Assembly: GCF_000153725.1 (NCBI RefSeq) | Contig: NZ_DS022279.1 | Span: forward strand, 69,501-133,500 | Origin: Salipiger bermudensis HTCC2601 | GTDB taxonomy: Bacteria; Pseudomonadota; Alphaproteobacteria; Rhodobacterales; Rhodobacteraceae | Direction: 5' to 3' | DNA length: 64,000 bases | In this document: one piece after another, positions 4,738 through 64,000 of the stretch | Layout: every line of letters begins with the position of its first letter | Numbering within the stretch: the stretch's first letter is position 1 | The notes under the pieces: model-generated | Seen by the model: only the letters and a program-made list of their open reading frames with translations | Told to the model about the DNA's origin: nothing | Database searches by the model: none | Made by a program: the position numbers and the translations under genes

Positions 4738-6744
4738 CTACCCGGCGAGATGCGCCTTGGCGCGGGCGACGATGGCGTCGCAGGTGATGCCGAACTCGGC
4801 ATAGAGCCGCTCTGCCGGGGCCGAGGCGCCAAAGCCCGGCATCCCCACCACATCTGCCTCGCGCGCCACGTAGCGGGTCCAGCCGAAGGGCAGGGCGGCT
4901 TCGACCGCGATGCGCGGCGCGAGGCCCAGCACCTCGTCGCGATAGGCCTCTGGCTGGGCGTCGAAGAGCTCCCAGCAGGGCATCGAGACCACGGCGACCG
5001 CGTGACCTTCCGCGTGCAGGGCTTCTGCCGCCTCGACGGCAAGCGCCACCTCGGTGCCGGTGGCCAGCAGCGTCACGTCGCGCCCCTCGCCGAACTGCCG
5101 GATCACGTAGCCACCGCGCGCGGTGAGGTTCTCGTCGCCCGCCTCGCGCAGTTGCGGCACGCCCTGCCGTGACAGCGCCAAGAGCGACGGCGTGGCGGGA
5201 GAGCGCAGCGCGATGTCCCACGCCTCCAGTGTCTCGACCGCGTCGGCGGGCCGGAAGACGTTGAGGTTGGGGATCGCGCGCAACGAGGCGAGATGCTCGA
5301 CCGGCTGGTGGGTCGGGCCGTCCTCGCCAAGGCCGATGCTGTCATGGGTCATCACGTAAGTGACGCCGAGCCCCATCAGCGCCGAGAGCCGGATGGCGTT
5401 GCGGGCATAGTCCGAGAACACCAGGAAGGTGCCGCCATAGGGCTTGAAGCCGCCATGCAGCGCCAGCCCGTTCATCGCCGCCGCCATGCCGAATTCGCGC
5501 ACGCCATAGCCGATGTAACGGCCCGAGCTTTCGGGGCTGAAGAGGCTGTCCACCGCCGGAACCCGGGTGAGATTCGAGCCGGTGAGATCGGCGCTTCCGC
5601 CGATCATCGCGGGCACTGCCTCGGTGAGGCTTTCGAGCGCCACCTGCGAGGCCTTGCGCGTGGCGATGGCCTGCGGTTCTGCAAAGAGCGCCGCGCGGGC
5701 CTGTGCGACCGCCGAGTCATACCCCTTGGGCAGGTCGCCCGCGATGCGCTGGCGGAAGGCCGGGGCCTGATCGGAGGCGGCGAGGGCGTCTTCCCAAGCG
5801 GCCCGGGCGTCCGAGCCGCGCGCCCCGATGGCGCGCCATTCCTTCGCCAGGTCGGCTGGGATCTCGAACGGCGCGGCGTCCCAGCCGAGCGCCTGCTTGG
5901 CCAGCGCGCCCTCGTCCGCCCCAAGCGGCGCACCGTGTGCCTTGGCGGTGCCGGCGCGGTTGGGGGCGCCAAAGCCGATCACCGTCTTCATGGCGATGAG
6001 GCTGGGACGGGTGGTTTCCGCCTTGGCCTGCCCCATGGCGGCATCGAGCGCGTCGGCATCGTGGCCGTCGCAGCGGATCACGTGCCAACCGCAGGCCTCG
6101 AGCCGCTTGGGCACGTCCTCTGAGAACGACACCGAGGTCGGCCCGTCGATGGTAATGTCGTTGTCATCGTAAAGCACGTTGAGCTTGCCGAGGCCGAGAT
6201 GGCCGGCCAGCGAGATCGCCTCTTGCCCGATGCCCTCCTGCAGGCAGCCATCGCCCAGCATCACCCAGGTGCGGTGATCGACGAGGCCGGGGAACTCGTC
6301 TGCCATGCGGCGTTCGGCCAGCGCCATGCCGACGGCGGTGGCGATGCCCTGTCCGAGCGGGCCGGTGGTGGTCTCGATCCCCTTGGCATGGCCCCATTCC
6401 GGGTGCCCGGCAGTGATCGCACCCCATTGCCGGAAGTTGCGGATCTGCTCGAGCGTCATGTCGGCGTAGCCGGTCAGGTGCAGCAGCCCGTAGAGCAGCA
6501 TCGAGGCGTGTCCGTTGGACAGGACAAAGCGGTCGCGGTCGGGCCAGTCGGGAGCGGAGGCGTCGAACTTCAGGTGGTTGCGGAACAGCACCGTGGCCGC
6601 GTCGGCCATGCCCATCGGCGCACCGGGGTGGCCGGAATTGGCGGCGTTGACGGCGTCGATGGCCAGCGCGCGCAGGCAGTTGGCGAGGGCGAAGTTGGCA
6701 GGGTCGATCGCCGCCTTGGCGGCCAGTTGGCTGTGATCGAGCAT
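4738..6744 (-). CDS. tkt: Transketolase
   Basis: This 668-residue TPP enzyme moves two-carbon units between ketose and aldose phosphates; erythrose 4-phosphate is a usual acceptor. Visible motifs are [11 protein letters not shown] near the N-terminus, the TPP/metal site LGDGCLQEG followed by [10 protein letters not shown], and [17 protein letters not shown] in the pyrimidine domain. The ATG at 6744 has GGAGG just upstream; the frame extends 20 codons further but without an RBS. It is divergent from eryH-eryI-fbp-fba and separated from them by 144 bases, which suggests co-regulation. In context it would use the erythrose 4-phosphate that EryI makes. It could also be a second copy beside a housekeeping transketolase elsewhere. 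Confidence 0.95.
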
Positions 6745-6888
6745 CGGGATTTTCCTCCGGGTCAGGGCGCTGTCATGCGCTATCAGTCGCGGAAGTGGTA
6801 ACATGAAGAATCACAAAATAACAAAAATAATGTTGATAAAGTGTCGATCGGTGTTATCTATCTTCCCGAAGACGGAGGAGACGACTCG
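6745..6888. promoter_or_regulatory. AT-rich divergent promoter region tkt / eryH with direct repeats
   Basis: The stretch from about 6800 to 6845 is sharply more AT-rich than its surroundings, as expected of promoters facing both ways. It holds two tandem copies of AAAATAA (6815-6821 and 6824-6830), nine bases apart. Repeated AT-rich units are common DeoR-family operators, and a DeoR gene lies at 22354. Assigning that regulator to this site is inference. Confidence 0.5.
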
Positions 6889-7674
6889 ATGCCAAGCGTT
6901 TGGATCGGCACCAGCTGGAAGATGAACAAGACCCTCGCCGAGGCTCGTACTTGGGCTGACGGGCTGGCTGCGGCCGAGCTCGATCCGCGCATCCAGAGCT
7001 TCGTGATCCCGCCCTTCACCGCCGTGCGCGAGGTCAAGGCGGCGCTGTCGGAGGCACCGGTCCTGGTCGGCGCACAGAACATGCACTGGGCCGACAAGGG
7101 TGCTTGGACCGGCGAGGTCTCGGCCCCGATGCTCACCGATTGCGGGCTCGAGATCGTCGAGCTCGGCCATTCCGAGCGCCGCGAGCATTTCGGCGAGACC
7201 GACGAGACCGTCGGCCTCAAGACCGAAGCGGCGGTGCGCCATGGCCTCGTGCCTCTGATCTGCATCGGCGAGACATTGGCCGACCGCGAAAGCGGTCGCG
7301 CGGCGGAGGTGCTGGCGGCACAGGTGCGCGGCGCGCTCTCCAAGCTTACGGACGATCAGAAGGCGGTGGAGATCTGGCTCGCCTACGAACCGGTCTGGGC
7401 CATCGGCGAGAACGGCATTCCGGCGACGGCAGACTATGCCGACGCCCGCCAGGCCGAGATTATCGCCGTCGCCGAGGAGATCCTCGGGCGCCGCATTCCC
7501 TGCCTCTACGGCGGCTCAGTCAATCCCGGCAACTGCGCCGAGCTGATCGCCTGCCCGCATATCGACGGGCTCTTCATCGGGCGCTCGGCCTGGGACGTGG
7601 CCGGCTATCTCGACATTCTCGCGCGCTGCGGCGCGGTACTGGATTCAAACGCCAAGACGGAGGAAATGACATGA
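6889..7674 (+). CDS. eryH: L-erythrulose 1-phosphate isomerase (TIM family, EryH/LerI type)
   Basis: This 261-residue triosephosphate-isomerase-fold protein keeps the TIM catalytic triad: K11 in [10 protein letters not shown]94 in ELGHSERRE and E167 in AYEPVWAIG. It also keeps the phosphate-binding YGGSVNPGN near residue 208. The ATG at 6889 follows GGAGGAG; an earlier in-frame start lacks an RBS. In erythritol and apiose pathways this subfamily interconverts L-erythrulose 1-phosphate and D-erythrulose 4-phosphate. The assignment rests on its overlap with an RpiB gene (the conserved eryH-eryI pair) and on the eryABCD genes 10 kb away. A housekeeping TpiA role is the alternative but less likely beside eryI. 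Confidence 0.85.
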
Positions 7675-8132
7675 AGATCGCAGTGGCCGGCGACAGCGCC
7701 GGAGAACCCCTCGCCATCGCGCTGGCCGAGTACCTGGCGCAGAACCCCGGCTACGAGGTCGCGGAGATCTCGCGCACCGAGGCCGGGCCAGACGATTTCT
7801 ACGCCAACCTCTCGGACCGGGTGGCGACGCAGGTGCTGGACGGCACCTATGACAAGGCGATCCTGTGCTGCGGCACCGGCATCGGTGTCTGCCTCGCCGC
7901 CAACAAGGTGCCCGGCATCCGCGCGGCGCAGACCCACGACACCTATTCCGCCGGGAAGGCCGCGACCTCGAACAACGCCCATATCATCACCATGGGCGCG
8001 CGGGTGGTGGGCGTCGAGCTCGCCAAGGACATCGCCGACGCCTTCCTGTCGTCCTCCTTCGATCCCGAAGGCAAGTCGGCCGGCAATGTCCGCGCCATCG
8101 ACGCGGTCGACGCCAAGTACCACACGGCATAA
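7671..8132 (+). CDS. eryI: D-erythrulose 4-phosphate isomerase (RpiB/LacAB family, EryI/DerI type)
   Basis: This 153-residue RpiB-fold isomerase starts at ATG 7671 inside the eryH stop (ATGA). It has the N-terminal [10 protein letters not shown] strand-loop, the catalytic-cysteine segment [16 protein letters not shown] (C66/C67) and [16 protein letters not shown]. Family members do ribose 5-phosphate isomerisation. The branch coupled to EryH converts D-erythrulose 4-phosphate to D-erythrose 4-phosphate, the entry point to the pentose phosphate pathway. Operon position supports that role. A GC hairpin follows the gene. Confidence 0.87.
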
Positions 8133-8146
8133 ACAGGGGGCATCCC

Positions 8147-8172: not shown

Positions 8173-8197
8173 TCCCCCGAGCCACGGAATTCCTGTC

Positions 8198-9166
8198 ATG
8201 CTGACCCTGCCCAACGACCGCCTGATCACGGCGGAGATCCTTCCCGCATGCCTGCCCGAAGATGGGGTGGGGCGCATCATCGGCGCTCTCGCCCATGCGC
8301 TGCCGGCCATCGGCGCGCGGCTGGCGGCGGGGAAACTGCCGGGCAACCCGGCGGAGCTCGTGGGCAACAACGAGAGCGGCGATGCGCAGAAGGCGCTCGA
8401 CGTCGGCGCCCATGACCACATCCTCGCCGAGCTGCATGGCTGCGGTGTGCGGCACATGCTCTCGGAAGAGGCCGAAGAGGTCGAGACGCTGGATCCGGAT
8501 GGCCTTTACGACATCGCCATCGACCCGATCGACGGCTCGGGCTCGATCGGCATCGGCGCTCCGCTGGGGATGCTCTTCGTGATCTATCCCACCGGGCCGC
8601 GCGATTTTGCCCGGCGCGGCTCCGAGGCCGTGGCGGCGGGTTATGCCTCGTTCGGGCACTCGCTGGATTTTGGCTACACCACCGGGCAGGGGGTGCAGAT
8701 CGCCACCTTCGACGGGCAGGATTTCCGCATGAGCGCCCGCGACGTGACGCTGAAGCCCACCGCCTCGACCATCGCCTACAACGCCTCGAACGAGCGCCAC
8801 TGGCCCGAGGGGCTGCAGGCCTGGGCGCGCGACCTGCGCGCCGGCAAGGACGGCCCGCGCGGGCGCGACTTCAACATGCGCTGGCTGGCGGCGGCGGTGG
8901 GCGAGCTGCACCGCATCCTGCTCAAGGGCGGCGCCTTCATCTACCCCGCCGACCGGCGCGAGGGCTACCGGCAGGGCCGGCTGCGGCTGGCCTACGAGGC
9001 GGTGCCCATCGCGCTGATGATCGAAGCCGCCGGCGGCCGCGCCACCGACGGCACCACCCGCATCCTCGACCTGATCCCCGAAACGCCGCACCAGAACGTG
9101 GCGCTGGCCTTCGGGGCGCCGGAAGAGATCGACACCATTGCCCGCTATATCCGGGAGGAGACCTGA
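8198..9166 (+). CDS. fbp: Fructose-1,6-bisphosphatase, class I (possibly also sedoheptulose-bisphosphatase)
   Basis: The 322-residue protein matches class I FBPase: [20 protein letters not shown] near residue 50, the metal-binding IDPIDGSGS (about 108-116), [11 protein letters not shown] (about 246) and the C-terminal [12 protein letters not shown]. The GSGSIG after DPIDG differs slightly from the usual GSSN form. It removes the C1 phosphate from fructose 1,6-bisphosphate; several bacterial homologues (CbbF) also take sedoheptulose 1,7-bisphosphate. Its partner aldolase starts four bases downstream, and tetrose-phosphate isomerases lie upstream, so SBPase activity would make sense here. That substrate is inferred, not visible. 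Confidence 0.88.
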
Positions 9167-9170
9167 CCCC

Positions 9171-10205
9171 ATGCCCCGCATCACGCTTCGCCAGCTGCTC
9201 GACCACGCCGCCGAGAACGGCTACGCCGTCCCGGCCTTCAACATCTCGAACATGGAGATGGGTCTGGCGATCATGACCGCCGCGCGCGAGACCGACGCGC
9301 CGGTGATCCTGGCGGCGTCGCGCGGGGCGCGGGCCTATGCCGGCGACGTGCTGCTGGCGCGGCTGATCGACGGGCTGGTCGAGACCTTCCCCGAGGTGCC
9401 GGTCTGCATGCATCTCGACCACGGCAACAACCTTGCGACCTGCGCCACCGCGATCCAGCACGGCTTTACCTCGGTGATGATGGACGGCTCGCTGCTGGCG
9501 GACGGCACCACCCCGGCGGAGTACGCCTATAACCGCGACATCACCGCCCGGGTCACCGAGATGGCCCATGCCTGCGGCGTCTCGGTCGAAGGCGAGCTTG
9601 GCGTTCTGGGCTCGCTCGAGACCGGCATGGGCGACCAGGAGGACGGTCACGGCGCTACCGAGAAGCTCTCGGAAGAGCAGCTGCTGACCGACCCGGAAGA
9701 GGCCGAGCGCTTCGTGCGCGAGACCGGCGTCGATGCGCTGGCGGTGGCGATGGGCACCAGCCACGGCGCCTACAAGTTCACCCGCCAGCCCGATGGCGAG
9801 ATCCTCGCGATGAGCGTCATCGAAGAGATCAACCGCCGCCTGCCGGACACGCATCTGGTGATGCACGGCTCGTCCTCGGTGCCCGAGGATCTGCGGCTGC
9901 TGATCAACAGCTATGGCGGCGACATGCGCCCGACCTGGGGCGTGCCGGTGGAGGAGATCCAGCGCGGCATCCGCTCGGGCGTGCGCAAGGTCAACATCGA
10001 CACCGACAACCGCATGGCGATGACGGCGGGGGTGCGCCGGGTGCTGTCCGACAACCCGGGCGAGTTCGACCCGCGCAAGTATCTCAAGGAAGGAAAGGCG
10101 CTGATGACCGCGCTCTGCAAGGCCCGCTTCGAGGCCTTCGGCACCGCCGGCCACGCGAGCCGCATCACGCCCGTCCCGCTGGAGGCGATGGCGCGGCGGT
10201 ACTGA
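9171..10205 (+). CDS. fba: Class II fructose-bisphosphate aldolase, Calvin-cycle subtype
   Basis: This 344-residue zinc aldolase begins at ATG 9171, behind GGGAGGAG and four bases after fbp. Zinc ligands and active-site motifs are visible: HLDHGNN (about residues 82-88), the VSVEGELG glutamate strand (about 138-145), GTSHGAYKF (about 202-210), VMHGSSS (about 231-237) and KVNIDTDNR (about 270-278). The longer insert and length match the CbbA-type subgroup, which condenses DHAP with glyceraldehyde 3-phosphate and often also with erythrose 4-phosphate. With EryI supplying erythrose 4-phosphate, it could make sedoheptulose 1,7-bisphosphate. Gluconeogenesis from other carbon sources is the alternative role. 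Confidence 0.92.
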
Positions 10206-12464: not shown

Positions 12465-13415
12465 TCAGGAGGATTGATCGAGCGTGAAGGCGGCGGTGTA
12501 GTTCTCGACATTGCTCTCGTCGATCAGCATGCAGTCGAAGAGTTGCTTCTCCTCGGCGACCATGAGCTCGCCGTTGGTGATGAAGTGGTCGGCCTGGCGC
12601 ACCGCCTCCTCGGCGAAGATCGCCACCGGCTGCAGCACGGTGTAGGTCAGCTCGCCGGCCTTGACCGCGTCGACCGCATCGGGGGAGCCGTCGAAGCCGC
12701 CGACGACCATGCCCTCGAGCTGGCCGGCTTCCTTGAGCGCCGCGATGGCGCCAAGCGCCATCTCGTCATTGCCCGAGATCACGCCCTTGATGTCGGGGTT
12801 GGCCTGCAGCATGGACTGCATCTTCGAGTAGCCCTGCGTGCGGTCCCAGTTGGCCACTTCCTGCGCCTTCTTCTCGAGGTCGGGATACTGGGTCAGCACC
12901 GTCTCGAAGCCGTTGGAGCGGGTCTGGGCGTTGTTGTCCGAGGGGGCGCCGAAAAGCTCGACATAGGAGCCCTCGCCGCCGATCGCCTCGACCCAGGCCA
13001 TGGCGCCGAGCGCCGCACCCTGCGCGTTGTTCGAGACGAGCTGCGCCTTGGCGAGGCCGGACTGGTTGATCTCGGCGTTGACGATGAAGACCGGGATGCC
13101 GGCCTCGACCGCCTTCTTCACCGCGCCGACCGAGCCGTCGGCATTGGCCGGGTCGAGGATGATCGCCTTGGCCTGGTTGGTGATCGCGGTGTCGACGAGG
13201 TTGCTCTCGGTGTTGGTGTCGCCCTTGTGGGCGGCGACGTTTGCGTCATAGCCCAGCTCCTCGGCGGTGGCCTTGGCGACCTCGCCCTCGGTGAACCAGT
13301 AGGGGTTCGAGGGGTCGTTGACGATGATCGAGATCAGGCCGTCGGCCATGGCGGCCTGCGCCATGAGCGGCAGGGCGGCGACGGTGGCGAGGATGGTGCG
13401 GCGGGTGAGTTTCAT
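12465..13415 (-). CDS. eryG: Ribose-type ABC sugar-binding protein, probable erythritol binding protein
   Basis: This 316-residue periplasmic protein has an N-terminal signal peptide (LTRRTILATVAALPLMAQ, cleavage after AMA) with a twin arginine. Two type I periplasmic-binding lobes follow: SIIVNDPSNPYWFTEG opens the fold, and KGVISGNDEMALGAIAAL and GGFDGSPDAVDAV are classic RbsB-like blocks. It is the last gene of the minus-strand operon DUF2291-ATPase-permease-binding protein, which is divergent from eryABCD. Rhizobial erythritol loci have the same kind of transporter (EryEFG), so erythritol is the likely ligand. Another polyol is possible. Confidence 0.87.
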   Translation of the reverse strand: MKLTRRTILATVAALPLMAQAAMADGLISIIVNDPSNPYWFTEGEVAKATAEELGYDANVAAHKGDTNTESNLVDTAITNQAKAIILDPANADGSVGAVKKAVEAGIPVFIVNAEINQSGLAKAQLVSNNAQGAALGAMAWVEAIGGEGSYVELFGAPSDNNAQTRSNGFETVLTQYPDLEKKAQEVANWDRTQGYSKMQSMLQANPDIKGVISGNDEMALGAIAALKEAGQLEGMVVGGFDGSPDAVDAVKAGELTYTVLQPVAIFAEEAVRQADHFITNGELMVAEEKQLFDCMLIDESNVENYTAAFTLDQSS

Positions 13416-17225: not shown

Positions 17226-17233
17226 ATGGCTGA
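17174..17233 (+). CDS. Possible 19-residue leader peptide overlapping eryA
   Basis: A short frame encodes MAQAYCPAQPAHREAVQHG. It starts behind AGGGAGGAGC (17161-17170), the only strong Shine-Dalgarno sequence ahead of eryA, and ends at a TGA eight bases inside eryA (17231-17233), in another frame. eryA's own ATG at 17226 has only a weak GCGAGG upstream. The arrangement suggests translational coupling, with ribosomes finishing the leader re-initiating at eryA. Whether the peptide is made is unproven. A mis-chosen eryA start is the alternative, but no better in-frame start exists upstream. Confidence 0.4.
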   Translation: MAQAYCPAQPAHREAVQHG

Positions 17234-24616: not shown

Positions 24617-24617
24617 G

Positions 24618-25832: not shown

Positions 25833-25958
25833 CGCTAATTCCTCCCTCGGAAGTCATGGCCGCAGCCGGCCCGTCCTGCTGTCAATGCATAGCAGATCAG
25901 AATTCTGTTGACTAGTATGGTAGTATCCACCACGCTGCCAAGCCAAGGGAGGAACGCA
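25833..25958. promoter_or_regulatory. Divergent promoter region uxuA / GntR gene
   Basis: The 126-base gap contains an AT-rich core with a perfect palindrome CAGAATTCTG (25898-25907), TTGACT (25908-25913) as a possible -35, and two TAGTAT repeats (25913-25918 and 25921-25926). It probably holds the promoters of both operons and a GntR operator. The exact site is not certain. Confidence 0.45.
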
Positions 25959-26657: not shown

Positions 26658-26694
26658 TCGCGGAATTTTCAAGGCGAATGAAAGGGAGGAAACC

Positions 26695-27672: not shown

Positions 27673-27700
27673 TCGGCCATAGATCCGACGCTGATCCTTC

Positions 27701-27731
27701 GGCGGGCCCGCACCCTTTTGCCGGGCCCGCC
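27701..27731 (+). other. Intercistronic hairpin between dctP and dctQ
   Basis: A perfect 10-bp stem (27701-27710 with 27722-27731, 11-base loop) sits in the 121-base gap. Such hairpins commonly protect the binding-protein mRNA or reduce read-through into permease genes. Confidence 0.55.
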
Positions 27732-27793
27732 ACCTCTCCGCCCCGGCGCGCTGCGCCCGGGCCCCGGATGTTCCCCTCTCGTCGAGGACGACC

Positions 27794-28294: not shown

Positions 28295-28295
28295 C

Positions 28296-29573: not shown

Positions 29574-29583
29574 GACTGTTCCC

Positions 29584-54351: not shown

Positions 54352-54370
54352 CTCATCATACCTGTTGACA
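54352..54370. promoter_or_regulatory. Candidate GntR operator (CTCATCATACCTG) with TTGACA
   Basis: CTCATCATACCTG (54352-54364) runs directly into TTGACA (54365-54370) between the divergent RLP and binding-protein genes. The same arrangement, CTGATCATACCAG then TTGAACAA, occurs at 63757 between oiaK and apnO. The repeat in two control regions of one pathway suggests a shared operator, probably for the GntR protein at 61594. Confidence 0.5.
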
Positions 54371-54438: not shown

Positions 54439-55404
<966 letters not shown>

Positions 55405-55416
55405 GCCAAGACGCGA

Positions 55417-55439
55417 CGGCCCGGCCTCGCGCCGGGCCG
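55417..55439 (+). other. Intercistronic hairpin after the binding-protein gene
   Basis: A perfect 9-bp stem (55417-55425 with 55431-55439, loop CTCGC) begins 12 bases after the stop. It likely stabilises the binding-protein message or limits read-through into the membrane components. Confidence 0.55.
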
Positions 55440-55469
55440 CCCCACTTCCAGACAAACGCCGGATATCCC

Positions 55470-56120
55470 ATGCGCCAAGCGATACTCTCGGGGGCGCTCG
55501 CCTGTCTCATGCTGCCTGCCGCGGCCTGCAAGATCGTGCCGAACCCCGATCCCGACGCCCAGTCCGAAGCCTCGGCCGCCCAGACCGACGAAGCCCGCAT
55601 GGCGGTCTATGTCGAGGACCGGTGGCAGGGCGAGGTTCTGCCCGTCATTTCCGAGAACACCGTCTCCTACGACGACCTGCGGGCAAGGCTCGACGATGGG
55701 CTCGATGCCGCCGGCGCGGCGCACGGGCTGCGGCCCGAGGGCGAGGCCAACCCGTGGAATTTCGTCGTGACCGGCAGCGGCACCGTGACCGAGGCAAAGC
55801 TCGACAGCCGCGCCGCAAAGATGCAGGTCGACATGGATGGCGACGGCAGCGCCGACGTGACGCTGCAGCTGGGCCCGGTGATCCGGGGCACCGCGCTGCG
55901 CGATGCCATGCCGTTCATCGTCTTCACCGATTTCCGCGACCAGATCGAATTCGCCAAGCTTGCCCGGGCGATGAACGACCGCGCCAGCGCCGGGCTCGAG
56001 AAGCCCGAGGGTGACGTGGTGGGCAAAGAGGTCAGCTTCACCGGCGTCTTCACCCTGCGCGCGGCGGGCGACACCCCCGAGATCGTGCCGACCGAGCTGT
56101 CGATGGGCGGTGCGCCATGA
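55470..56120 (+). CDS. DUF2291-family lipoprotein of the apiose ABC operon
   Basis: The 216-residue protein starts with a lipoprotein signal: a hydrophobic stretch, then LPAAAC with C20 as the likely lipidated residue. The periplasmic body shares GPVIRGTALRDA and FTDFRDQIEFAKLARAMNDR with the paralogue at 16093, and GKEVSFTGVFTL with its GKQMTVTGAFKL. It overlaps the ATPase start by four bases, as the other copy does. The constant placement suggests an accessory function in ribose-type transport. The biochemical role is unknown. Confidence 0.82.
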   Translation: MRQAILSGALACLMLPAAACKIVPNPDPDAQSEASAAQTDEARMAVYVEDRWQGEVLPVISENTVSYDDLRARLDDGLDAAGAAHGLRPEGEANPWNFVVTGSGTVTEAKLDSRAAKMQVDMDGDGSADVTLQLGPVIRGTALRDAMPFIVFTDFRDQIEFAKLARAMNDRASAGLEKPEGDVVGKEVSFTGVFTLRAAGDTPEIVPTELSMGGAP

Positions 56121-57664
56121 GCGGCCTGGCGCATCCCATAGGCCTCAGCATCCGCGAGGGCACCAAGGTCTATCCCGGCACCGTGGCGCTGAAGGCGGTG
56201 GATTTCGACCTGCGCATGGGCGCAGTGAACGTGCTGGTGGGCGAGAACGGGGCCGGCAAGTCGACGATGATGAAGGTCATCGCCGGGGTCGAGCAGCTCA
56301 GCTCGGGGCGGGTCGAGATGGACGGCCGCGAGGTGCGTTTCCACTCGACCGACGAGGCCGAGCGCCACGGCATCGGCATTGTCTTCCAGGAGCTGAACCT
56401 CTTTCCCAATCTCACCGTCGCCGAGAACATCTTCATGGCGCACGAGAAGACCCGCCTTGGCGTCGATATCGATGCCGAGGCGCAGCGCGCCGAGACCCGT
56501 GCGCTGATGCGGCGGCTCGAGCACGACATCGACCCCGACACGCTGGTGGGCGACCTCAAGGTCGGGCAGCAACAGATCGTCGAGATCGCCAAGAGCCTGT
56601 CGCGCGACGCCCGCATCCTGATCCTCGACGAGCCGACCTCGGCGCTGTCGAATGCGGAGGTCGAGATCCTGTTCCGCGTCATCGAGGAGCTCAAGGCAGA
56701 GGGCGTGGGCATCGTCTACATCTCGCATCGCCTCGAAGAGCTGATCCGTGTGGGCGACTACATCACCGTGCTGCGCGACGGTGTGATCACCGGGGCGCAG
56801 TCGATGGAGGGCGTCGACATCGCGTGGATCGTGCGCAACATGATCGGCGAGAGCTCCAAGGACTTTGCCAAGGAGATCGAGCACCCCTTCGGCGAAGAGG
56901 CTCTGCGGGTCGAGAACATGCGGCTGGCCGACAGCGGCGGCGGCTTTGCGGTCGACGGCGTGTCGCTGTCGCTGCGGCAGGGCGAGATCCTCGGCATCTA
57001 CGGGCTGATGGGCGCGGGCCGCACCGAGCTGCTTGAGGCGATCATCGGTCGGTACCACCACGTCACCGGCGATGTCTGGGTGCATGGCGAGAAGATGGGC
57101 AAGCCCCGCGTCGCCGACCGCATCGCGAAGGGGCTCGCGCTGATCCCCGAAGACCGCAAGCATGACGGGCTGGTTCAGATCCTGTCGATCCGCGAGAACA
57201 TGACGCTGTCGTCGGTCGAGGCCTTTACGCAGGGCTTTCACATGGACCTGCGCGGCGAGCGCTCGCGCGTGGCCGAGTTCGTCAAGCGCATGGTGATCAA
57301 GATCGCCTCGCCCGAGAACCCGGTCTCGGCGCTGTCGGGCGGCAACCAGCAGAAGGTGGTGATCTCGAAGGCGCTGATGACCGGGCCGCGGGTGCTGCTC
57401 ATGGACGAGCCCTCGCGCGGGATCGACATCGGCGCGAAGGCCGAGGTGTTCCGGGTCATGCGCCAGCTCGCCGCCGAGGGCCTCGGCATCGTCTTCGTGA
57501 CCTCGGATCTCGAGGAGGTGCTGAGCCTCTCGGACCGCATCATCGTCATGTCGAACGGCCGGATCACCGGAGAATTCAGCAAGGAGGAGGTCACCGAGAC
57601 GAAGCTCGTGACCGCGTCCGCCGTGGGCCATGCGCCCGACCGCGCGGAAAGGGAGACCGCATAA
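56117..57664 (+). CDS. Ribose-type ABC transporter ATPase (double nucleotide-binding domain)
   Basis: The 515-residue RbsA-type protein has Walker A GENGAGKSTMMK (about residue 40), LKVGQQQIVEIAKSL, ILILDEPTSAL, a second-domain degenerate P-loop GLMGAGRTELLE, then LSGGNQQKVVISKALM and VLLMDEPSRGIDIG. Start and stop both overlap neighbours (ATGA with DUF2291, TAATG with the permease). It energises uptake of the sugar bound by the protein at 54457. It is paralogous to the ATPase at 14555 in the erythritol operon. Confidence 0.93.
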   Translation: MSGLAHPIGLSIREGTKVYPGTVALKAVDFDLRMGAVNVLVGENGAGKSTMMKVIAGVEQLSSGRVEMDGREVRFHSTDEAERHGIGIVFQELNLFPNLTVAENIFMAHEKTRLGVDIDAEAQRAETRALMRRLEHDIDPDTLVGDLKVGQQQIVEIAKSLSRDARILILDEPTSALSNAEVEILFRVIEELKAEGVGIVYISHRLEELIRVGDYITVLRDGVITGAQSMEGVDIAWIVRNMIGESSKDFAKEIEHPFGEEALRVENMRLADSGGGFAVDGVSLSLRQGEILGIYGLMGAGRTELLEAIIGRYHHVTGDVWVHGEKMGKPRVADRIAKGLALIPEDRKHDGLVQILSIRENMTLSSVEAFTQGFHMDLRGERSRVAEFVKRMVIKIASPENPVSALSGGNQQKVVISKALMTGPRVLLMDEPSRGIDIGAKAEVFRVMRQLAAEGLGIVFVTSDLEEVLSLSDRIIVMSNGRITGEFSKEEVTETKLVTASAVGHAPDRAERETA

Positions 57665-58731
57665 TGACCGACACCACCGCATCCGCCGCCGCACCGCAGG
57701 CGGGGCCAAACAACACGCTTCTGCTGCTGCTGAAGGCCCGGACCTTCATCGCGCTGATCCTCGTCTTCGTCTTCTTCTCGATCTTCGCGCCGAACTTCCT
57801 GTCGACGGCGAACATGGTGATCATGTCGAAGCACGTAGCGCTGAACGCGTTTCTTGCCATCGGCATGACCTTCGTGATCGTGTCGGGGGGCATCGACCTG
57901 TCGGTGGGCTCCATCGTCGGTCTGTGCGGGATGGTCGCGGGCTACCTGCTGCTCAACGGCATCGACATCGGGCTGGGCTGGTCGGTGCAGTTCAACACGC
58001 TCGAGATCTGCCTGATCGTGGCGCTGGTGGGCATCGCGATCGGCGCGATGAACGCCTTTCTTGTCACCAAGCTGAACGTGGCCCCCTTCATCGCGACGCT
58101 GGGCACGCTCTACATCGCGCGCGGCGCGGCGATGCTGTCGAGCGAGGGCGAGACCTTTCCCAACCTCACGGGCAACACCGAGTACGGCTCGCACACCTAT
58201 CGGATGATCGGCTCGGGCGACTTCCTCGGCATCCCGATCTCGATCTGGATGCTGATCGCCGTGGGCCTGCTGGCCGCCTACATCGCCAAGCGTACGCCGC
58301 TCGGGCGCTTCATCTACGCCGTCGGCGGCAACGAGCGCGCGGCCGGCCTCTCGGGCGTGAAGGTGACCCGGGTCAAGTACTTCGTCTACATGTTCTCGGG
58401 GTTCTGCGCGGCGCTGGTGGGCATCATCATCTCGTCGCAGCTGGTGGCCGCCCACCCGGCGACCGGCGACACCTTCGAGCTCAACGCCATCGCCGCGGCG
58501 GTGCTCGGCGGCACCTCGATGTCGGGCGGGCGCGGCAAGATCGGCGGCACCATCGTCGGTGCCTTCGTGATCGGCGTGCTGTCGGACGGGCTGGTGATGA
58601 TGGGGGTCTCGGCCTTCTGGCAGACCGTCATCAAGGGTATCGTCATCATCGCCGCCGTGGTCATCGACCAGGCGCAGCAGAAGGTCCAGGCCAAGGTCGC
58701 GCTGCAGGCGCAGGCCGCGGTCGGCAAATGA
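57664..58731 (+). CDS. Ribose-type ABC transporter permease
   Basis: The 355-residue RbsC-like membrane protein has about ten helices. Blocks are IVSGGIDLSVGSIVGLCG (about residue 76), VAPFIATLGTLYIARGAAML (about 141), YAVGGNERAAGLSGV (about 220) and SMSGGRGKIGGTIVGAFVIG. It is coupled by TAATG to the ATPase and lies ten bases before the dehydrogenase gene. It is the membrane channel of the probable apiose importer. Confidence 0.92.
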   Translation: MTDTTASAAAPQAGPNNTLLLLLKARTFIALILVFVFFSIFAPNFLSTANMVIMSKHVALNAFLAIGMTFVIVSGGIDLSVGSIVGLCGMVAGYLLLNGIDIGLGWSVQFNTLEICLIVALVGIAIGAMNAFLVTKLNVAPFIATLGTLYIARGAAMLSSEGETFPNLTGNTEYGSHTYRMIGSGDFLGIPISIWMLIAVGLLAAYIAKRTPLGRFIYAVGGNERAAGLSGVKVTRVKYFVYMFSGFCAALVGIIISSQLVAAHPATGDTFELNAIAAAVLGGTSMSGGRGKIGGTIVGAFVIGVLSDGLVMMGVSAFWQTVIKGIVIIAAVVIDQAQQKVQAKVALQAQAAVGK

Positions 58732-58741
58732 GGGAGGCCAC

Positions 58742-59782
58742 ATGAGCCGCATCAGGGGCGCACTCATCGGTTGCGGGTTCTTCGCCCGCAACCAGCTTCA
58801 CGCCTGGGAGGGGATCGAGGGGGTCGAGATCGTGGCGATCTGCGACCGCGACGAGACCCGCCTTTCCGAAACCGGCGAGGCCTTCGGCATCGCCCGCCGC
58901 TACACCGATGCGGAACGGATGTTCGAGGAAGGCGGCTTCGATTTCGTCGATATCGCCACGACCGTGGCCGCGCACCGGCCGCTGGTCGAGATGGCGGCGC
59001 GGGCCGGGGACGGCGCCGGTGTGCACGTCATCTGCCAGAAGCCCTTTGCCGAGAACATGGAGGACGCGCGGGCAATGGTCGCGGCGATCGACGCCACCGG
59101 CAAGACCCTCATGGTGCACGAGAACTTCCGCTGGCAGTCGGCGGTGCGTGCCGCCATCGAGACGCTGCGCGGCGGGGCCATCGGCACGCCGTTCTTCGGT
59201 CGCGTGAGCTTCCGCTCGGGCTATGACGTGTTCTCGGGCCAGCCCTATCTTGCCGAGGGCGCGCGGTTCATAATCGAGGATCTGGGCATCCATATCCTCG
59301 ACATCTCGCGGGCGCTCTTTGGCGACGTGGCGCGGATCAGCGCGACCACGACGCGGATCAACCCCGAGATCCGGGGCGAGGACGTGGCCACCATGCTGCT
59401 GGCCCACGAGAGCGGCGTCACCAGCGTGGTCGACTGTTCCTATGCCACGCGACGCACCCCCGAGACCTTCCCCGAGACATTGCTCGAGATCGACGGCACC
59501 GGCGGCACGCTGCGGCTCGACGCGGGCTACCGGCTGACGATCCAGGCGCGCGGCGGCGAAGAGGTCCGCGACGTGGCGCCGCCGGTGCTGCCCTGGGCCG
59601 AGCGGCCCTGGCACAACATCCAGGAGAGCGTGGCGCTGATCCAGCAGCATTTCATCGCGTGCCTGTGCGACGGCCGCGCGCCGGAGACCTCGGGCGCGGA
59701 CAATCTCCGGACCCTCGCGCTGGTCGAGGCCGCGTATCTCTCGGCTGCCGAGGGCCGCACGGTGGCGCTGGCCGAGCTATGA
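58742..59782 (+). CDS. apsD: Gfo/Idh/MocA-family dehydrogenase, probable D-apiose dehydrogenase
   Basis: The 346-residue NAD(P)-dependent enzyme has an N-terminal Rossmann fold (ALIGCGFFARNQLHAW, about residues 7-22), ICDRDETRL and the family motif CQKPFAENMEDAR (about 98-110) with the catalytic lysine. A C-terminal alpha/beta substrate domain follows (GIHILDISRALFGD). D-apiose dehydrogenase (ApsD) of this family oxidises D-apiose to D-apionolactone. The next gene, overlapping by four bases, looks like the matching lactonase, which supports the call. Other sugar 1-dehydrogenase specificities are possible. Confidence 0.8.
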   Translation: MSRIRGALIGCGFFARNQLHAWEGIEGVEIVAICDRDETRLSETGEAFGIARRYTDAERMFEEGGFDFVDIATTVAAHRPLVEMAARAGDGAGVHVICQKPFAENMEDARAMVAAIDATGKTLMVHENFRWQSAVRAAIETLRGGAIGTPFFGRVSFRSGYDVFSGQPYLAEGARFIIEDLGIHILDISRALFGDVARISATTTRINPEIRGEDVATMLLAHESGVTSVVDCSYATRRTPETFPETLLEIDGTGGTLRLDAGYRLTIQARGGEEVRDVAPPVLPWAERPWHNIQESVALIQQHFIACLCDGRAPETSGADNLRTLALVEAAYLSAAEGRTVALAEL

Positions 59783-61563
59783 CCGATCCCGTCGCGCTTT
59801 ACGGCACTGCGGTGCCACCGGCCCCTGCCACCGAGCTCTGCCACGGCGAGGTGACGCTGACCCTGCAGGAGGGGGCGCTGCGCCACATCCGCGTGGGCGG
59901 CACCGAGATCATCCGGTCGGTGGCCTTTCTCGCCCGGGACCGCGACTGGGGCACCATCGCGCCCGAGATCGGCGCGCTCGAACGGCACGAGGAGGACGGC
60001 ACGCTGCGGCTCGTCCTGCCCCTGCGGTTCGACACCGGCAGCGCACGGCTCGACGTGTCGCTTCAGGTGCAGATCGCGGATGGGCGGCTTTGCGTTGCGG
60101 CCGAGGGGCGGACGCATGGCGATTTCGAAACCAACCGCGCGGGGTTCACCGTGCTGCACCCGATCGAGGGCGTGGCCGGCTGCCCGGTCCGCGTCACCCA
60201 TGGCGACGGTCGGATCGAGGACAGCCGCTTTCCCGAGCTCATCGCGCCGTGGCAGCCCTTCATGGACATCGCAGCGCTCGAACATGAGGCGAACGGGATG
60301 CGGGTGCGCTGCGCCTTTGCCGGCGACACCTTCGAGATGGAGGACCAGCGCCAGTGGGGCGATGCATCCTACAAGACCTACAACCGGCCGCTCGCGCTGC
60401 CCTGGCCCTACATTCTCGGCGATGGCGCGGCGCTGGTGCAATCCTGCGAGATCACCTGGAAGCCCGCCCCGATCAGCGCGCCGGCGCGTCCCGCAAGCGC
60501 GGCTCAGACTGCCCTCGTGCCGCAGACCGCGCTCGTGCTGACCGCCGAGGATGCGCGTCGGCTGGCGCGGCAGCCGGAAGATCTCGACGTGGTCGGCCCG
60601 CAGCGGCTGCTGTGTCATGTCGACGCAGCGGCGGGGCCCGCGGCACCGCAGATCGCCGCCTTTGCCGAGGCGCAGGCCGCGTTGCCCGGCATCCTCTTCG
60701 ACCTCGAGCTCATCTGTCGCTTCGACGGCAGTCAGTCCCCCGGCGAGGAGCTTGCCGCCCACGCCGCCGCCGTGCGCGACAGCGCGCTGGCGCCGGCGTC
60801 GGTGTTCGTGTGCCCCTCTGTCGACCGCCAGTCGACGCCGCCCGGCTCGGACTGGCCGGACTGCCCGCCGCTCGAGGAGATCCACGCCGCCGCGGCCCGT
60901 GCCTTTCCAGACCTGCCGAGGGGCGGCGGAATGGCGAGCCTGTTTACCGAGTTGAACCGCAAGCGGCCGCCGCTCGGCCATCTGGATTTCGTGAGCCACG
61001 CCTTGTGCTCGATCGTCCATGCCGCCGATGACGGCCATGTCATGGAAACCCTTGAAACCATTCCGCATATCGCGCGCTCGATGCGCGAGATCATCGGCGG
61101 ATGCGGCTACCGGATCGGTCCTGCGACCATCGCCATGCGGCAGAACCCCTACGGCTCGCGGACCATCCCCAACCCCGAGGGCGGGCGGGTCTGCATGACG
61201 GATGACGACCCACGCCATCGCGGGGCCTTTGGCGCGGCCTATGCGCTGGGGCTGGTGGCGGCGCTCGCGCCCTTCGACATCGCTGTCTGGACGCCCGCCG
61301 CGCTTTATGGGCCGCGCGGGCTCTTTGGCGACAACGGCCCGCTGCCGCTGGCCGACGCGCTGCGCGCGGTCTCGGATCTGGCCGGCAAGCCGGTCCGTGA
61401 GGCGGGCATCGCCGACGGCATCGCCACGCTGGCGACCGACGACGCGCGGCTTTCGGCCAACCTCACGCCTGCCATCAACAACGGTCTGCCGCGCTATGGC
61501 TGGCATCTCTCGCGCGGAGCCGAGATTGAGACTCGCGCCCAGAGAGGCTACTTATCAGGTTAA
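59779..61563 (+). CDS. apnL: Probable D-apionolactonase (ApnL family)
   Basis: The 594-residue protein has no signal peptide or membrane helix and no common hydrolase motif that I can point to. Its size, its N-terminal beta-rich segment (about 20-225; LPLRFDTGSARLDVSL, YKTYNRPLALPWPYIL), and a central part resembling a TIM barrel (FDLELICRFDGS, SHALCSIVHAADDGHVMETL) fit the ApnL family as I know it. ApnL opens D-apionolactone to D-apionate. It overlaps apsD by four bases (59779-59782) and shares the locus with oiaK, oiaX and apnO. The call leans on context as much as on sequence. Confidence 0.75.
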   Translation: MTDPVALYGTAVPPAPATELCHGEVTLTLQEGALRHIRVGGTEIIRSVAFLARDRDWGTIAPEIGALERHEEDGTLRLVLPLRFDTGSARLDVSLQVQIADGRLCVAAEGRTHGDFETNRAGFTVLHPIEGVAGCPVRVTHGDGRIEDSRFPELIAPWQPFMDIAALEHEANGMRVRCAFAGDTFEMEDQRQWGDASYKTYNRPLALPWPYILGDGAALVQSCEITWKPAPISAPARPASAAQTALVPQTALVLTAEDARRLARQPEDLDVVGPQRLLCHVDAAAGPAAPQIAAFAEAQAALPGILFDLELICRFDGSQSPGEELAAHAAAVRDSALAPASVFVCPSVDRQSTPPGSDWPDCPPLEEIHAAAARAFPDLPRGGGMASLFTELNRKRPPLGHLDFVSHALCSIVHAADDGHVMETLETIPHIARSMREIIGGCGYRIGPATIAMRQNPYGSRTIPNPEGGRVCMTDDDPRHRGAFGAAYALGLVAALAPFDIAVWTPAALYGPRGLFGDNGPLPLADALRAVSDLAGKPVREAGIADGIATLATDDARLSANLTPAINNGLPRYGWHLSRGAEIETRAQRGYLSG

Positions 61564-61572
61564 CAGACCAGT
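61550..61572. promoter_or_regulatory. Imperfect inverted repeat ahead of the GntR gene
   Basis: An imperfect dyad centred on GTTAAC (61559-61564), flanked by ACTTATC and GACCAGT, covers the end of apnL and the 30-base gap before the GntR start. It may be an autoregulatory site. It resembles the ACCAG half of the site at 63757 only partly. Confidence 0.3.
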
Positions 61573-61593
61573 AGACGCCGGAGGGCTCACGTC

Positions 61594-62316
61594 ATGGAAA
61601 GCGGAACGCACGCCAAGGGCGACAAGATCGTCCGCCGCAAACTCTCGGAGCAGGTGCTTGAACGGCTGCACGAGATGATCCGCACGCATGAACTCAAACC
61701 CGGCGAATTCATGCCCTCGGAACGGGCGCTGATGGAGCGCTTCGGGGTCGGGCGGCCCGCCGTGCGCGAGGCGCTGCAATCGTTACACAATAGCGGCCTG
61801 ATCACCATCAACCACGGCGAACGCTCCCGCGTGAACGAGCTGAACGCCGCCAGCGTGCTGTCAAAGTCCGACGAGCTGGCGCGGCTGGTGCTGGATTCCG
61901 CGCCCGCCAACCTCGATCACCTGAAACACGCGCGGCAGATGTTCGAGCTGGGCATGGTCCGCGTCGCCGCCGAGAACGCCACGCCCGAGGACATCGCCGA
62001 GCTGCGCGGCCTGATCGAGACGCAGCGCGGCGAACTTGGCGATGCGACGGCCTTCATCTCGACCGACATGGCGTTTCACCGCAAGCTCGCGTCTCTGGCG
62101 AACAACCCGATCATCCTGTCGGTCTCTGACGCGATGCTGGGCTGGCTCTTCGAGTACCACGTGAGCCTTCTGCACCGCTCGGGCAGCGAGGACGTGACGC
62201 TGGCCGAACACGCCAAGATCGTCGATCACATCGAGGATCACGACGTCGAGGGTGCCGTGGAGGAGATGCGCCGCCACCTCGAGCGCTCGCGCATCGTCTT
62301 CGAGCCGCGCGAGTAG
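61594..62316 (+). CDS. GntR-family regulator (FadR/FCD subgroup) of the apiose locus
   Basis: The 240-residue protein has a winged helix-turn-helix (PSERALMERFGVGRPAVREALQSL, about residues 42-65, shown as two parts here: PSERALMERFGVG and RPAVREALQSL). An FCD effector domain with metal-ligand-type residues follows (STDMAFHRKLASLANNP, EHAKIVDHIEDHD). It lies 30 bases after apnL in the same direction and is followed by the convergent oiaK. It is the only regulator in the locus, so it likely controls the ABC operon, oiaX, oiaK and apnO, with a pathway acid as inducer. Confidence 0.88.
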   Translation: MESGTHAKGDKIVRRKLSEQVLERLHEMIRTHELKPGEFMPSERALMERFGVGRPAVREALQSLHNSGLITINHGERSRVNELNAASVLSKSDELARLVLDSAPANLDHLKHARQMFELGMVRVAAENATPEDIAELRGLIETQRGELGDATAFISTDMAFHRKLASLANNPIILSVSDAMLGWLFEYHVSLLHRSGSEDVTLAEHAKIVDHIEDHDVEGAVEEMRRHLERSRIVFEPRE

Positions 62317-62339
62317 CCTCCGCCGCGCCGCCGGTCCGC

Positions 62340-63692
62340 TCATCGCGGGCCGCCGCCGTCGCGGATCCAGCCGAAGAAGTCCTCGCTGCCCATCTGTCCG
62401 CCCTTGAGCGCGATCTGCAGCCCGTCATGCGCGCCACCGCCGTGACCGGTACAGAGCGCCGCGCCGGGAATGGTCGGTGCCAGCGCCTCGAGCGCCTCGA
62501 GTCCGAGCGCGCGCATCCCGTGGCCCGAGGTGTCGCCGCCCGAGATCACCGCCCGGCGCAGACCGCTCTGGCGCAACACCCGGTCCAGCACGCGTCCCAG
62601 CGCCTGGCCGATGCGGGCGTTGGCGGTTTCCATGTCAGTCGCGCTGCCCGAGAGCGCCGTGCGGAATGCCGCGACGCGTGGATCGTCCGGCCCGCCGGCA
62701 GAGGTGACGAGCGGGCTCGCGCCGCGCTCTGCCGCGCTCAGCGCGGCTCTGGCGCAGCGGTCGATTTCCGCCTCCAGCGCCTCGGGTGATCCCAGCACCG
62801 CGCCCGTGTCAAAGGCGATAAGCTCGAAGCCATGCGCCGCGGACCAGTCGAGCTGCTGCGCCGTGCTGGGCGAGACCGAGCCAGAGACCGCGGCGATCCG
62901 GTCGACCCCGCCGGCGCTTTCGGGGGCGGGAGGGGGCGGCAGCGTGCCGGTCTCCTGCCAGTGTCGCACCAGCGCGTATTCGAGCCCCTGCGAGCCCACA
63001 GCCACGCGCAGCCGCTCCCGGTTTTCCCAGACCAGCCGGCCCACCGCTGCCTCGCTTCTGGGCTCCATGCTGTCGAACGACAGGATGCGCGCGCCCGCGG
63101 CCAGAGCCGCGTCGAGCGCGGCCTGCGGATCGTCGGACCAGAGCGCTTCGAGGTCGACCAGCCGGGAGGGCAGGTCGGTCTGCTCGGCAAGGTGGCGCAG
63201 CAGGTCGGCTTCGGTCATCGGTGTCACCGGGTGGCGCGACATGACCGGGTGGCGGTCCAGCCGGAAGACGCCGTCGAAGGTGCCGGCAAAGAGATGCCCA
63301 AACGACTGGTAGCGGCGCATCTGCGGCGCGGCGGTCACAAGCGGCACGGCGTCGGACGGCCGCTGCGCAAGGCAGAGCGCGAGGGCGGTGCCGATGTTGC
63401 CGGAGTTGGGCGAGGAATCGAAGGTCGAGCAGACCTTGTAGTGCAGGATTTCGGCCCCCGTCGCATCAAGCCAGGCGAGCGGCGCGGGCAGATGCGCGCG
63501 CATCCAGTCCGGCCCGTGGGTGCGGGCGGTGGTGGCGATGCCCACCGCTTGGGCCGTGGCGAAGCGTGCGGTCAGCGCCTCTGAGGGGATGTCGGAGAAC
63601 AGCACCGTCTTCAGACCTGCGAACGCCAGAACCTCCATCACGGCGGCGGAACCGGTGAAATCATCCCCAAGCCAGGCCAGTTTCGGCGTCAT
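62340..63692 (-). CDS. oiaK: DUF1537 four-carbon acid sugar kinase, probable 3-oxo-isoapionate kinase
   Basis: The 450-residue protein has the DUF1537 N-terminal motif GDDFTGSAAVMEVLAFAG (residues 9-26) and the C-terminal nucleotide-binding block ISGGDTSGHGMRAL (about 383-396), followed by GHGGGAHDGLQIALKGGQMG. Kinases of this family phosphorylate aldonic-type acids. OiaK phosphorylates 3-oxo-isoapionate at C4, making the substrate for the RLP at 53055. It is divergent from an apnO-like gene, consistent with that step. Other DUF1537 members act on threonate, erythronate or tartronate-type acids, which remain alternatives. Confidence 0.83.
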   Translation of the reverse strand: MTPKLAWLGDDFTGSAAVMEVLAFAGLKTVLFSDIPSEALTARFATAQAVGIATTARTHGPDWMRAHLPAPLAWLDATGAEILHYKVCSTFDSSPNSGNIGTALALCLAQRPSDAVPLVTAAPQMRRYQSFGHLFAGTFDGVFRLDRHPVMSRHPVTPMTEADLLRHLAEQTDLPSRLVDLEALWSDDPQAALDAALAAGARILSFDSMEPRSEAAVGRLVWENRERLRVAVGSQGLEYALVRHWQETGTLPPPPAPESAGGVDRIAAVSGSVSPSTAQQLDWSAAHGFELIAFDTGAVLGSPEALEAEIDRCARAALSAAERGASPLVTSAGGPDDPRVAAFRTALSGSATDMETANARIGQALGRVLDRVLRQSGLRRAVISGGDTSGHGMRALGLEALEALAPTIPGAALCTGHGGGAHDGLQIALKGGQMGSEDFFGWIRDGGGPR

Positions 63693-63756
63693 CGTGTGCT
63701 CCTCCCCCTGCTGCCACCGCGGACAATCGCAGTTGACATTACTTGTTGCATATTAT

Positions 63757-63777
63757 CTGATCATACCAGTTGAACAA
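63757..63777. promoter_or_regulatory. Candidate GntR operator between oiaK and apnO
   Basis: CTGATCATACCAG (63757-63769; arms CTGAT/ACCAG) followed by TTGAACAA lies in the 111-base divergent gap. TTGACA at 63733-63738 is a possible -35 for apnO, which would put the operator over the -10. The near-identical element at 54352 supports it as a regulator site. Confidence 0.5.
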
Positions 63778-63803
63778 CCCCTGAACCCGGAGGAGAACCT
63801 GCA

Positions 63804-64000
63804 ATGACCAAAGTCGCGCTTTTCGGAGCCGGCGGCAAAATGGGAGTCCGTCTGTCGCTGAACCTTGCGAAGACGGATTTCGACGTCGCCCACATCGAGA
63901 TCAGCGACCCCGGCAAGGACCGGCTTCGCGCCGAGGTCGGCGTGGAGGCCGTCGATGCAGAGACCGGGCTGGAGGGGGCCGAGGTCGTTATCCTCGCGGT
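63804..64000 (+). CDS. apnO: Probable D-apionate oxidoisomerase, 3' end outside window
   Basis: Only the first 65 codons are present. They encode an N-terminal NAD-binding fold: VALFGAGGKMGVRLSLNL (residues 4-21) and a strand-helix ending in VVILAV. A start behind GGAGGAGA is clear. The GAGGKMG form and the position divergent from oiaK fit ApnO, which converts D-apionate to 3-oxo-isoapionate. A generic 6-phosphogluconate-dehydrogenase-like or semialdehyde-type dehydrogenase cannot be excluded from this fragment. Confidence 0.7.
   Translation, partial: MTKVALFGAGGKMGVRLSLNLAKTDFDVAHIEISDPGKDRLRAEVGVEAVDAETGLEGAEVVILA

Follow-up and report, generated by a model that had tools for sequence, protein, structure and literature searches.

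Genes of the window

A stretch of 64,000 nucleotides from Salipiger bermudensis HTCC2601 (hereafter the window; bases 69501-133500 of a 192.5-kb contig in a genome of 5.48 Mb, 6 contigs, 99.7% complete) was analyzed for genes of erythritol and D-apiose catabolism. It contains an erythritol locus, an apiose locus with a RuBisCO-like protein of the OiaX kind, and a single eryH-eryI pair of putative tetrulose-phosphate isomerase genes, which very probably serves the breakdown of both sugars. L and G numbers below denote loci and genomes.

The isomerase pair, placed at 6.9-8.1 kb by an earlier note on this DNA, was confirmed there (TIM 6889-7674, RpiB 7671-8132). The two genes overlap by 4 bases and belong to a larger block, in which tkt is divergent from eryH-eryI-fbp-fba:

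4738..6804, minus strand: tkt, transketolase, divergent from eryH (TIGR00232, 817.5 bits, cut-off 682)
6889..7674, plus strand: eryH (lerI), triose-phosphate isomerase (TIM) family, putative L-erythrulose 1-phosphate isomerase (TIM models; start GTSWKMNK)
7671..8132, plus strand: eryI (derI), RpiB family, predicted D-erythrulose 4-phosphate isomerase (NF051858, 248.8 bits, cut-off 240)
8189..9166, plus strand: class 1 fructose-bisphosphatase-like gene (fbp) after eryI (NF006780, 342.4 bits, below the cut-off of 358; PF00316 and PF18913 above cut-off)
9171..10205, plus strand: fba, class II fructose-bisphosphate aldolase (TIGR01521, 574 bits, cut-off 496)

EryI thus exceeds the curated DerI cut-off. 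The NCBIfam matches to EryH say only triose-phosphate isomerase and include no LerI-specific model; in line with a LerI/TpiB assignment, EryH belongs to the TIM family, adjoins DerI, and differs from the housekeeping TIM. Its N-terminal start is GTSWKMNK, as compared with AGNWKMNG in the chromosomal TIM (6889 is a more likely start of the gene than 6841), and the same start is found in nearly all listed pair-linked TIMs, the Rhizobium etli type having GTSFKMNK or near it and L099 having GTGWKMNK. Beside the block lies a gene for type-2 lumazine synthase (4206-4682; NF009084, 227 bits, cut-off 160), an enzyme whose substrate is likewise a four-carbon sugar phosphate; the gene turns up repeatedly close to the pair in several genera (L032, L052, L070, L073, L076, and L077).

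The erythritol genes eryABCD, assigned by the earlier note to 17-22 kb, extend from eryA at 17226 to the end of eryD at 22309. Their order matches that in Thalassospira marina (L013), with 81-91% identity:

12465..13415, minus strand: sugar-binding protein of a putative erythritol ABC transporter (84% identity to the protein in the same place in T. marina L013)
17226..18833, plus strand: eryA, FGGY kinase (81% identity in T. marina L013; FGGY-kinase models below cut-offs)
18835..20343, plus strand: eryB, GlpD-type dehydrogenase (NF009906, 832 bits; 88% in T. marina L013)
20343..21275, plus strand: eryC, tetrulose 4-phosphate racemase/epimerase (PF01261; 90% in T. marina L013)
21374..22309, plus strand: eryD, regulator (91% in T. 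marina L013; SorC/DeoR-type models below cut-off)
22354..23121, plus strand: DeoR-family regulator, EryR-like (PF00455 and PF08220)

In G261 and Rhizobium sp. BG4 the isomerase pair has a 62% relative of the DeoR protein as its neighbour. Open reading frame translations indicate polyol/sugar-acid type genes with a TRAP transporter at 23156-30633, in the stretch that separates the erythritol locus from the apiose locus.

The apiose genes, placed by the earlier note at 53-64 kb, begin at 53055 and run to the window edge, and their order is that of annotated OiaX clusters. The predicted product of the window OiaX is L-erythrulose 1-phosphate, with which the co-occurrence with DerI described below is in keeping. 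Over 99% of 11 kb, the region shares 92% identity with a Salipiger profundus plasmid; it includes the following genes:

53055..54320, minus strand: oiaX, predicted 3-oxo-isoapionate 4-phosphate decarboxylase, RuBisCO-like (NF042437, 772.1 bits, cut-off 700)
54457..55404, plus strand: apiose-type ABC substrate-binding protein (PF13407)
55404..56120, plus strand: DUF2291 lipoprotein (PF10054)
56117..57664, plus strand: sugar ABC transporter ATPase (97% to the annotated gene of S. profundus L009)
57664..58731, plus strand: sugar ABC transporter permease (98% to S. profundus L009)
58742..59782, plus strand: Gfo/Idh/MocA oxidoreductase, candidate D-apiose dehydrogenase (PF01408; no specific NCBIfam model passed)
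59779..61563, plus strand: apnL, D-apionate lactonase-like (NF049900)
61594..62316, plus strand: GntR/FadR regulator, NanR model (NF003011, 290.3 bits, cut-off 260)
62340..63692, minus strand: oiaK, 3-oxo-isoapionate kinase-like (NF042436; PF07005 and PF17042)
63804..64000, plus strand: apnO-like gene crossing the window edge and ending 631 bases past it (whole gene L002:1804-2631)

The last of these encodes an oxidoisomerase of the PGDH_C type (PF16896, 232 bits on the whole gene), for which no specific NCBIfam model passed.

Search for a second isomerase pair

Genome-wide profile searches located RpiB (PF02502) in one place, eryI, and TIM (PF00121) in two places, eryH and the canonical chromosomal TIM. 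There is no TIM-RpiB pair within the apiose cluster at 53-64 kb, which therefore does not have a dedicated pair of the R. etli type, and neither TIM nor RpiB occurs in the 18 kb beyond 64 kb (locus L002). The absence of a second pair from the apiose locus, claimed earlier for the window, thus holds for the next 18 kb as well, a dedicated pair past the window edge is rejected, and the search of the rest of the genome for other lerI or derI copies returned no second RpiB and no TIM other than the canonical one.

Two kinds of RuBisCO-like proteins

For the order-level comparison, 390 genomes were scored with models for OiaX (NF042437) and DerI (NF051858). Seventeen genomes exceeded the OiaX cut-off, the lowest at 727 bits, and the next best scored 461, so that two kinds of RuBisCO-like proteins are well apart. 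The second kind (370-461 bits) is represented in 42/390 genomes, and its loci were covered in all 42 (47 stretches and the own-genome one). In a class-level sample of 385 genomes, with few per family, S. bermudensis alone exceeded the OiaX cut-off, and two genomes had DerI-class genes.

According to the passages available of a review, RuBisCO-like proteins either decarboxylate 3-oxo-isoapionate 4-phosphate or transcarboxylate and hydrolyse it, the latter reaction being described there for a Xanthobacter autotrophicus protein (PMC6302742). Were the window protein a transcarboxylase/hydrolase giving glycolate and 3-phosphoglycerate, apiose breakdown would need no isomerases; we regard this as extremely improbable, given a score of 772 bits against a cut-off of 700, the gap between 727 and 461 bits, and the fact that it is the other kind that does not track DerI. 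A RuBisCO-like protein of another kind, a point set beforehand as telling against the shared route, is rejected by the same score and gap.

The genome has three RuBisCO-family genes: oiaX, a chromosomal RuBisCO, and a chromosomal RuBisCO-like protein scoring 385 bits with the OiaX model (C6:2680155-2681396; L008:1489-2754, L014). The neighbours of the latter are a weakly OiaK-like kinase, a TRAP-type binding-protein gene, and a LacI-type regulator, with no ApnO nearby. A hamamelose route with a RuBisCO-like oxygenase, cited in a passage of PMC10176493, is a possible lead for its function.

Co-occurrence of OiaX and DerI in the order

DerI-class genes were called at 223 bits in the order set and at 220 bits in the named set described below, limits chosen from the score gap and not the curated 240. 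Forty-two of the 390 genomes scored at least 223 bits; the next one scored 168, and the others listed 128 or less. A DerI-class gene is present in all 17 OiaX genomes and in 25/373 genomes without OiaX (Fisher p 1e-18). The association persists when counted by genus (10/10 vs 15/129, p 6e-9) and at the curated cut-off (11/17 vs 19/373, p 7e-10). TIM genes number exactly two in each of the 17 OiaX genomes, and in every case one is a close neighbour of the DerI gene. The pair lies within 10 kb of oiaX in 2/17 genomes (G142 and G286), at 45 kb in G000, at more than 0.8 Mb in G042 and G261, and on another contig in the other 12/17. EryC was found in 13/17 OiaX genomes, in one case with an internal stop (G260), and the 4 genomes without it retain the pair; two of these four have it inside the apiose cluster, preceded by an apiose operator. 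Two further placements were observed: in L025 (G132), a genome without EryC, a TIM-RpiB pair stands alone beside uvrB and an epimerase gene, and in L028 (G261) deoR-TIM-RpiB is about 1.4 Mb from eryC.

The second kind provides a natural control. Twenty-four genomes without OiaX have a second-kind protein beside an ApnO-like gene (>45% identity), usually with an OiaK-like gene and often with dehydrogenase and lactonase genes; the dehydrogenases of the G319 and G316 clusters are 73% identical to that of the window. DerI occurs in only 2/24 of these genomes vs 17/17 with OiaX (p 1e-9), and both exceptions (G063 and G210) are of one genus and have EryC. Hence the isomerases accompany the OiaX kind, and not the presumed upper apiose route by itself. 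We infer that the second kind is the transcarboxylase/hydrolase, for which a pattern of not tracking DerI would be expected.

Since both loci are accessory and often plasmid-borne, large plasmid-rich sugar generalists might simply gather them by chance or by joint transfer, so that the co-occurrence would reflect lifestyle only. All 80 genomes of the named set, moreover, were chosen by closeness to the window OiaX. We nonetheless consider this explanation highly improbable: DerI is not enriched among ApnO-linked genomes of the other kind (2/24), it is found in 6/42 of all second-kind genomes together (p 0.29), and in the named set EryC is missing from 20/80 OiaX genomes and DerI from 2.

Location of the pair in OiaX genomes

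The named set comprises the best 80 of 552 confirmed loci from an OiaX alignment scan, and three of its loci (L045, L046, and L064) coincide by coordinates with order-set genomes G142, G113, and G242. A DerI-class gene was found in 78/80 genomes (48/50 and 30/30), with 71/80 passing the curated cut-off, and EryC in 60/80. In 38/60 EryC-bearing genomes there is a single DerI gene, no more than 20 kb from eryC, and no copy was observed at 10 kb or less from oiaX, as in the window; the locus is full-length in 33 of these 38 and shorter than 21 kb in 5, where a pair near oiaX could be missed. In 11 further genomes the sole DerI gene is close to both, no more than 10 kb from oiaX and 20 kb from eryC, and a plasmid search revealed adjacent erythritol and apiose clusters, again with a single pair, in Rhizobium sp. 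BG4. A pair on the apiose side, meaning near oiaX and not merely the erythritol one, is more frequent in EryC-less genomes (13/20 vs 4/60 EryC-bearing, p 4e-7). In a tree of 39 DerI sequences the copies from erythritol and apiose loci are mixed, without an apiose-only clade, and the location label changes at least 8 times, although support is low across much of the tree.

The pair might instead serve erythritol alone, with apiose-derived L-erythrulose 1-phosphate passing to the chromosomal TIM and RpiA, a phosphatase, or an aldolase. The pair indeed sits in the erythritol block behind a promoter without an apiose operator, and the isomerase search covered the TIM and RpiB families, not RpiA or phosphatases. 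We judge this improbable, as DerI is present in 17/17 OiaX genomes, including 4 without EryC; the pair is inside the apiose cluster in two EryC-less genomes of the order and in R. etli CFN42, and within 10 kb of oiaX in 13/20 EryC-less named genomes; and the canonical TIM lacks the eryH signature.

Several other loci carry related genes. In Rhizobium, L108, L109, and L112 combine an OiaX-like gene, TIM-RpiB, DeoR, and other transport genes, with no relatives of apnO, apnL, or the dehydrogenase, and are perhaps devoted to a different sugar acid. Dihydroxyacetone-kinase genes stand beside apiose clusters or the isomerase pair (L011:24035-25239, L114:2656-4308, L009:20162-21934, and L024:11082-12875), and in L114 an apiose-type operator adjoins dhaL; such kinases could feed free L-erythrulose, phosphorylated, into the same pathway.

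Candidate operators

Three candidate operators were located in the window:

6817..6834, plus strand: candidate DeoR/EryR operator AATAACAAAAATAATGTT, between tkt and eryH (sole window match at 3 or fewer mismatches; 0 in 100 shuffles)
54352..54366, minus strand: candidate apiose operator AACAGGTATGATGAG, between oiaX and the binding-protein gene (perfect match)
63757..63771, minus strand: candidate apiose operator AACTGGTATGATCAG, between oiaK and apnO (perfect match)

In 2.0 Mb of collected loci the apiose-locus word AAC(A/T)GGTATGATNAG was matched 168 times with 2 or fewer mismatches, vs 12 times in one base-shuffled copy; all operator words were derived from the same loci in which they were later counted, and the shuffled controls for the apiose and DeoR-type words preserve base composition only. 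Within 320 bases upstream it precedes 68/90 oiaX genes, 61/69 apnO genes, and 4/35 pair-linked TIM genes, the last four belonging to pairs that lie within an apiose cluster or next to one (L026 and L045, from one organism, L027, and L099).

The pattern AATAACAAAAATAATGTT was written from the site at 6817-6834 and its relatives. Similar words precede deoR-TIM-RpiB or eryH in BG4, G261, G159, and T. marina, and in L073 one separates deoR from fba; with 3 mismatches allowed, no such word stands before several deoR-TIM genes (e.g., L058, L079, and L033). A third word, AAAAATTACACTCG, is common to the eryA promoters of three genomes. These conserved sites suggest that there are three switches, one of them particular to the shared block: the erythritol genes may be controlled by EryD, the apiose genes by the NanR-like protein, and the shared block by the DeoR protein, separately from the two sugar-specific regulators.

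Proposed pathway and points against it

In the reconstructed pathway, erythritol would be converted by EryA, EryB, and EryC, and D-apiose by the Gfo/Idh dehydrogenase, ApnL, ApnO, OiaK, and OiaX, both to L-erythrulose 1-phosphate. The single eryH-eryI pair would then turn this compound into D-erythrulose 4-phosphate and further into D-erythrose 4-phosphate, which the products of tkt, fbp, and fba beside the pair would pass into central metabolism, Tkt being the likely exit. The substrates of each enzyme are predicted from family models and the literature, and EryHI would be active during growth on apiose. In Brucella, as described in the passages available, EryC is a tetrulose 4-phosphate racemase, EryH a D-3-tetrulose 4-phosphate isomerase, and EryI yields erythrose 4-phosphate, which leaves via Tkt, Tal, and Fba (PMC11508834). 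By our reasoning, D-3-tetrulose 4-phosphate and L-erythrulose 1-phosphate are one compound numbered from opposite ends.

Breakdown of both sugars through eryHI, two clusters forming one network with a shared lower branch, is with high probability the best reading of the genomic evidence, and this proposal of the earlier note is supported by the presence of DerI with OiaX but seldom with clusters of the other kind, together with the lack of another pair in the genome. Many related genomes seem to be arranged likewise. Several observations weigh on the other side. The OiaK and ApnL matches fall below the NCBIfam cut-offs (452.7/700 and 624.8/750 bits, respectively), though these models are the best. 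The apiose word has no match within 2 mismatches near 6804-6889, before eryH; a shared NanR-type operator there is accordingly rejected, and apiose has to induce eryHI by some other means. Among the 42 genomes of the order with DerI, 25 are without OiaX, which would be expected were erythritol the more frequent user. Two of the 80 named genomes have no DerI-class match: in L098 the TIM gene that immediately follows oiaK is cut by the contig end, and in L099 a TIM lies near the apiose cluster, with RpiB at 144.5 bits only. A tree-based test of the trade-off between EryC and an own pair was underpowered (4 independent pairs on supported branches of the OiaX tree, median p 0.25). Finally, two or three DerI-class genes occur in 9/80 genomes, so separate pairs exist too; R. 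etli keeps one inside its apiose cluster, and sharing is therefore common, not universal.

Comparison with known loci

The OiaX-type D-apiose route was reportedly described by Carter et al. in 2018, who may well name LerI and DerI for it. The window has the corresponding set of genes (OiaX, OiaK-, ApnO-, and ApnL-like genes, the Gfo/Idh dehydrogenase, an ABC transporter, and a NanR-like regulator). Rhodobacteraceae strain LCG007, with genes annotated as this route, grows on D-apiose, according to the available part of PMC11747546.

The enzymes are the same as in the eryABCD-eryR-tpiB-rpiB loci of Rhizobium leguminosarum, Sinorhizobium meliloti, and Brucella, but in the window the pair heads the tkt / eryH-eryI-fbp-fba block away from eryABCD, and the apiose locus is 45 kb off on the same contig. 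The erythritol block of T. marina has the same gene order. In the accessible passages on such loci, eryR-tpiB-rpiB is described as a unit, erythritol loci are absent from R. etli, and a second eryR-tpiB-rpiB of Sinorhizobium fredii is given no role (PMC3599248); in Brucella, fbp and fba stand beside deoR-tpiA2-rpiB, and all are erythritol-induced, as stated in parts of PMC3522698 and PMC3599248.

The apiose cluster of R. etli CFN42 p42f contains a LerI/DerI pair, located between oiaK and apnO, unlike that of the window, which has none. The likeness is closer with Rhizobium johnstonii 3841 pRL12, where, for the loci examined, a pairless apiose cluster (419-431 kb) accompanies eryABCD-deoR-tpi-rpiB (213-220 kb); there, however, deoR-tpi-rpiB directly follows eryD and roughly 200 kb separate the loci. 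A single pair between or close to the erythritol and apiose genes is likewise found in Mesorhizobium loci and on pRPC1 of Rhizobium sp. BG4, although the two clusters adjoin there and are 45 kb apart in the window. A literature search of partial coverage, with the main apiose paper outside it, found no paper joining the apiose and erythritol routes.

Implications

The erythritol and apiose pathways and their enzymes are already described, so the chemistry is not new; the novelty lies in the shared block with a presumed switch of its own and in how tightly it is tied to one kind of RuBisCO-like protein. The finding is a solid, testable network, not a surprise in kind.

With about even chances, eryR-tpiB-rpiB (with tkt, fbp, and fba where present) is a general tetrulose-phosphate hub with its own switch and not an erythritol module. 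Its DeoR-type regulator would sense the intermediate common to all routes, so that any pathway making L-erythrulose 1-phosphate (erythritol, OiaX-type apiose, or DhaK-type tetrulose kinases) could plug in without isomerases of its own. The hub, and not the sugar, would then decide which of the two RuBisCO-like apiose routes stays, as OiaX would need it and the other kind would not. This may explain the persistence of two RuBisCO-like routes for one sugar, and it offers a possible reason for erythritol-type isomerase modules without erythritol genes and for the extra one in S. fredii.

Annotation pipelines and pathway maps seek complete clusters, and an apiose cluster without isomerases therefore looks incomplete; the comparison indicates that it is usually the erythritol locus that provides these steps. 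For many genomes this translates into a growth prediction: OiaX together with an eryHI pair anywhere in the genome should mean the use of apiose.

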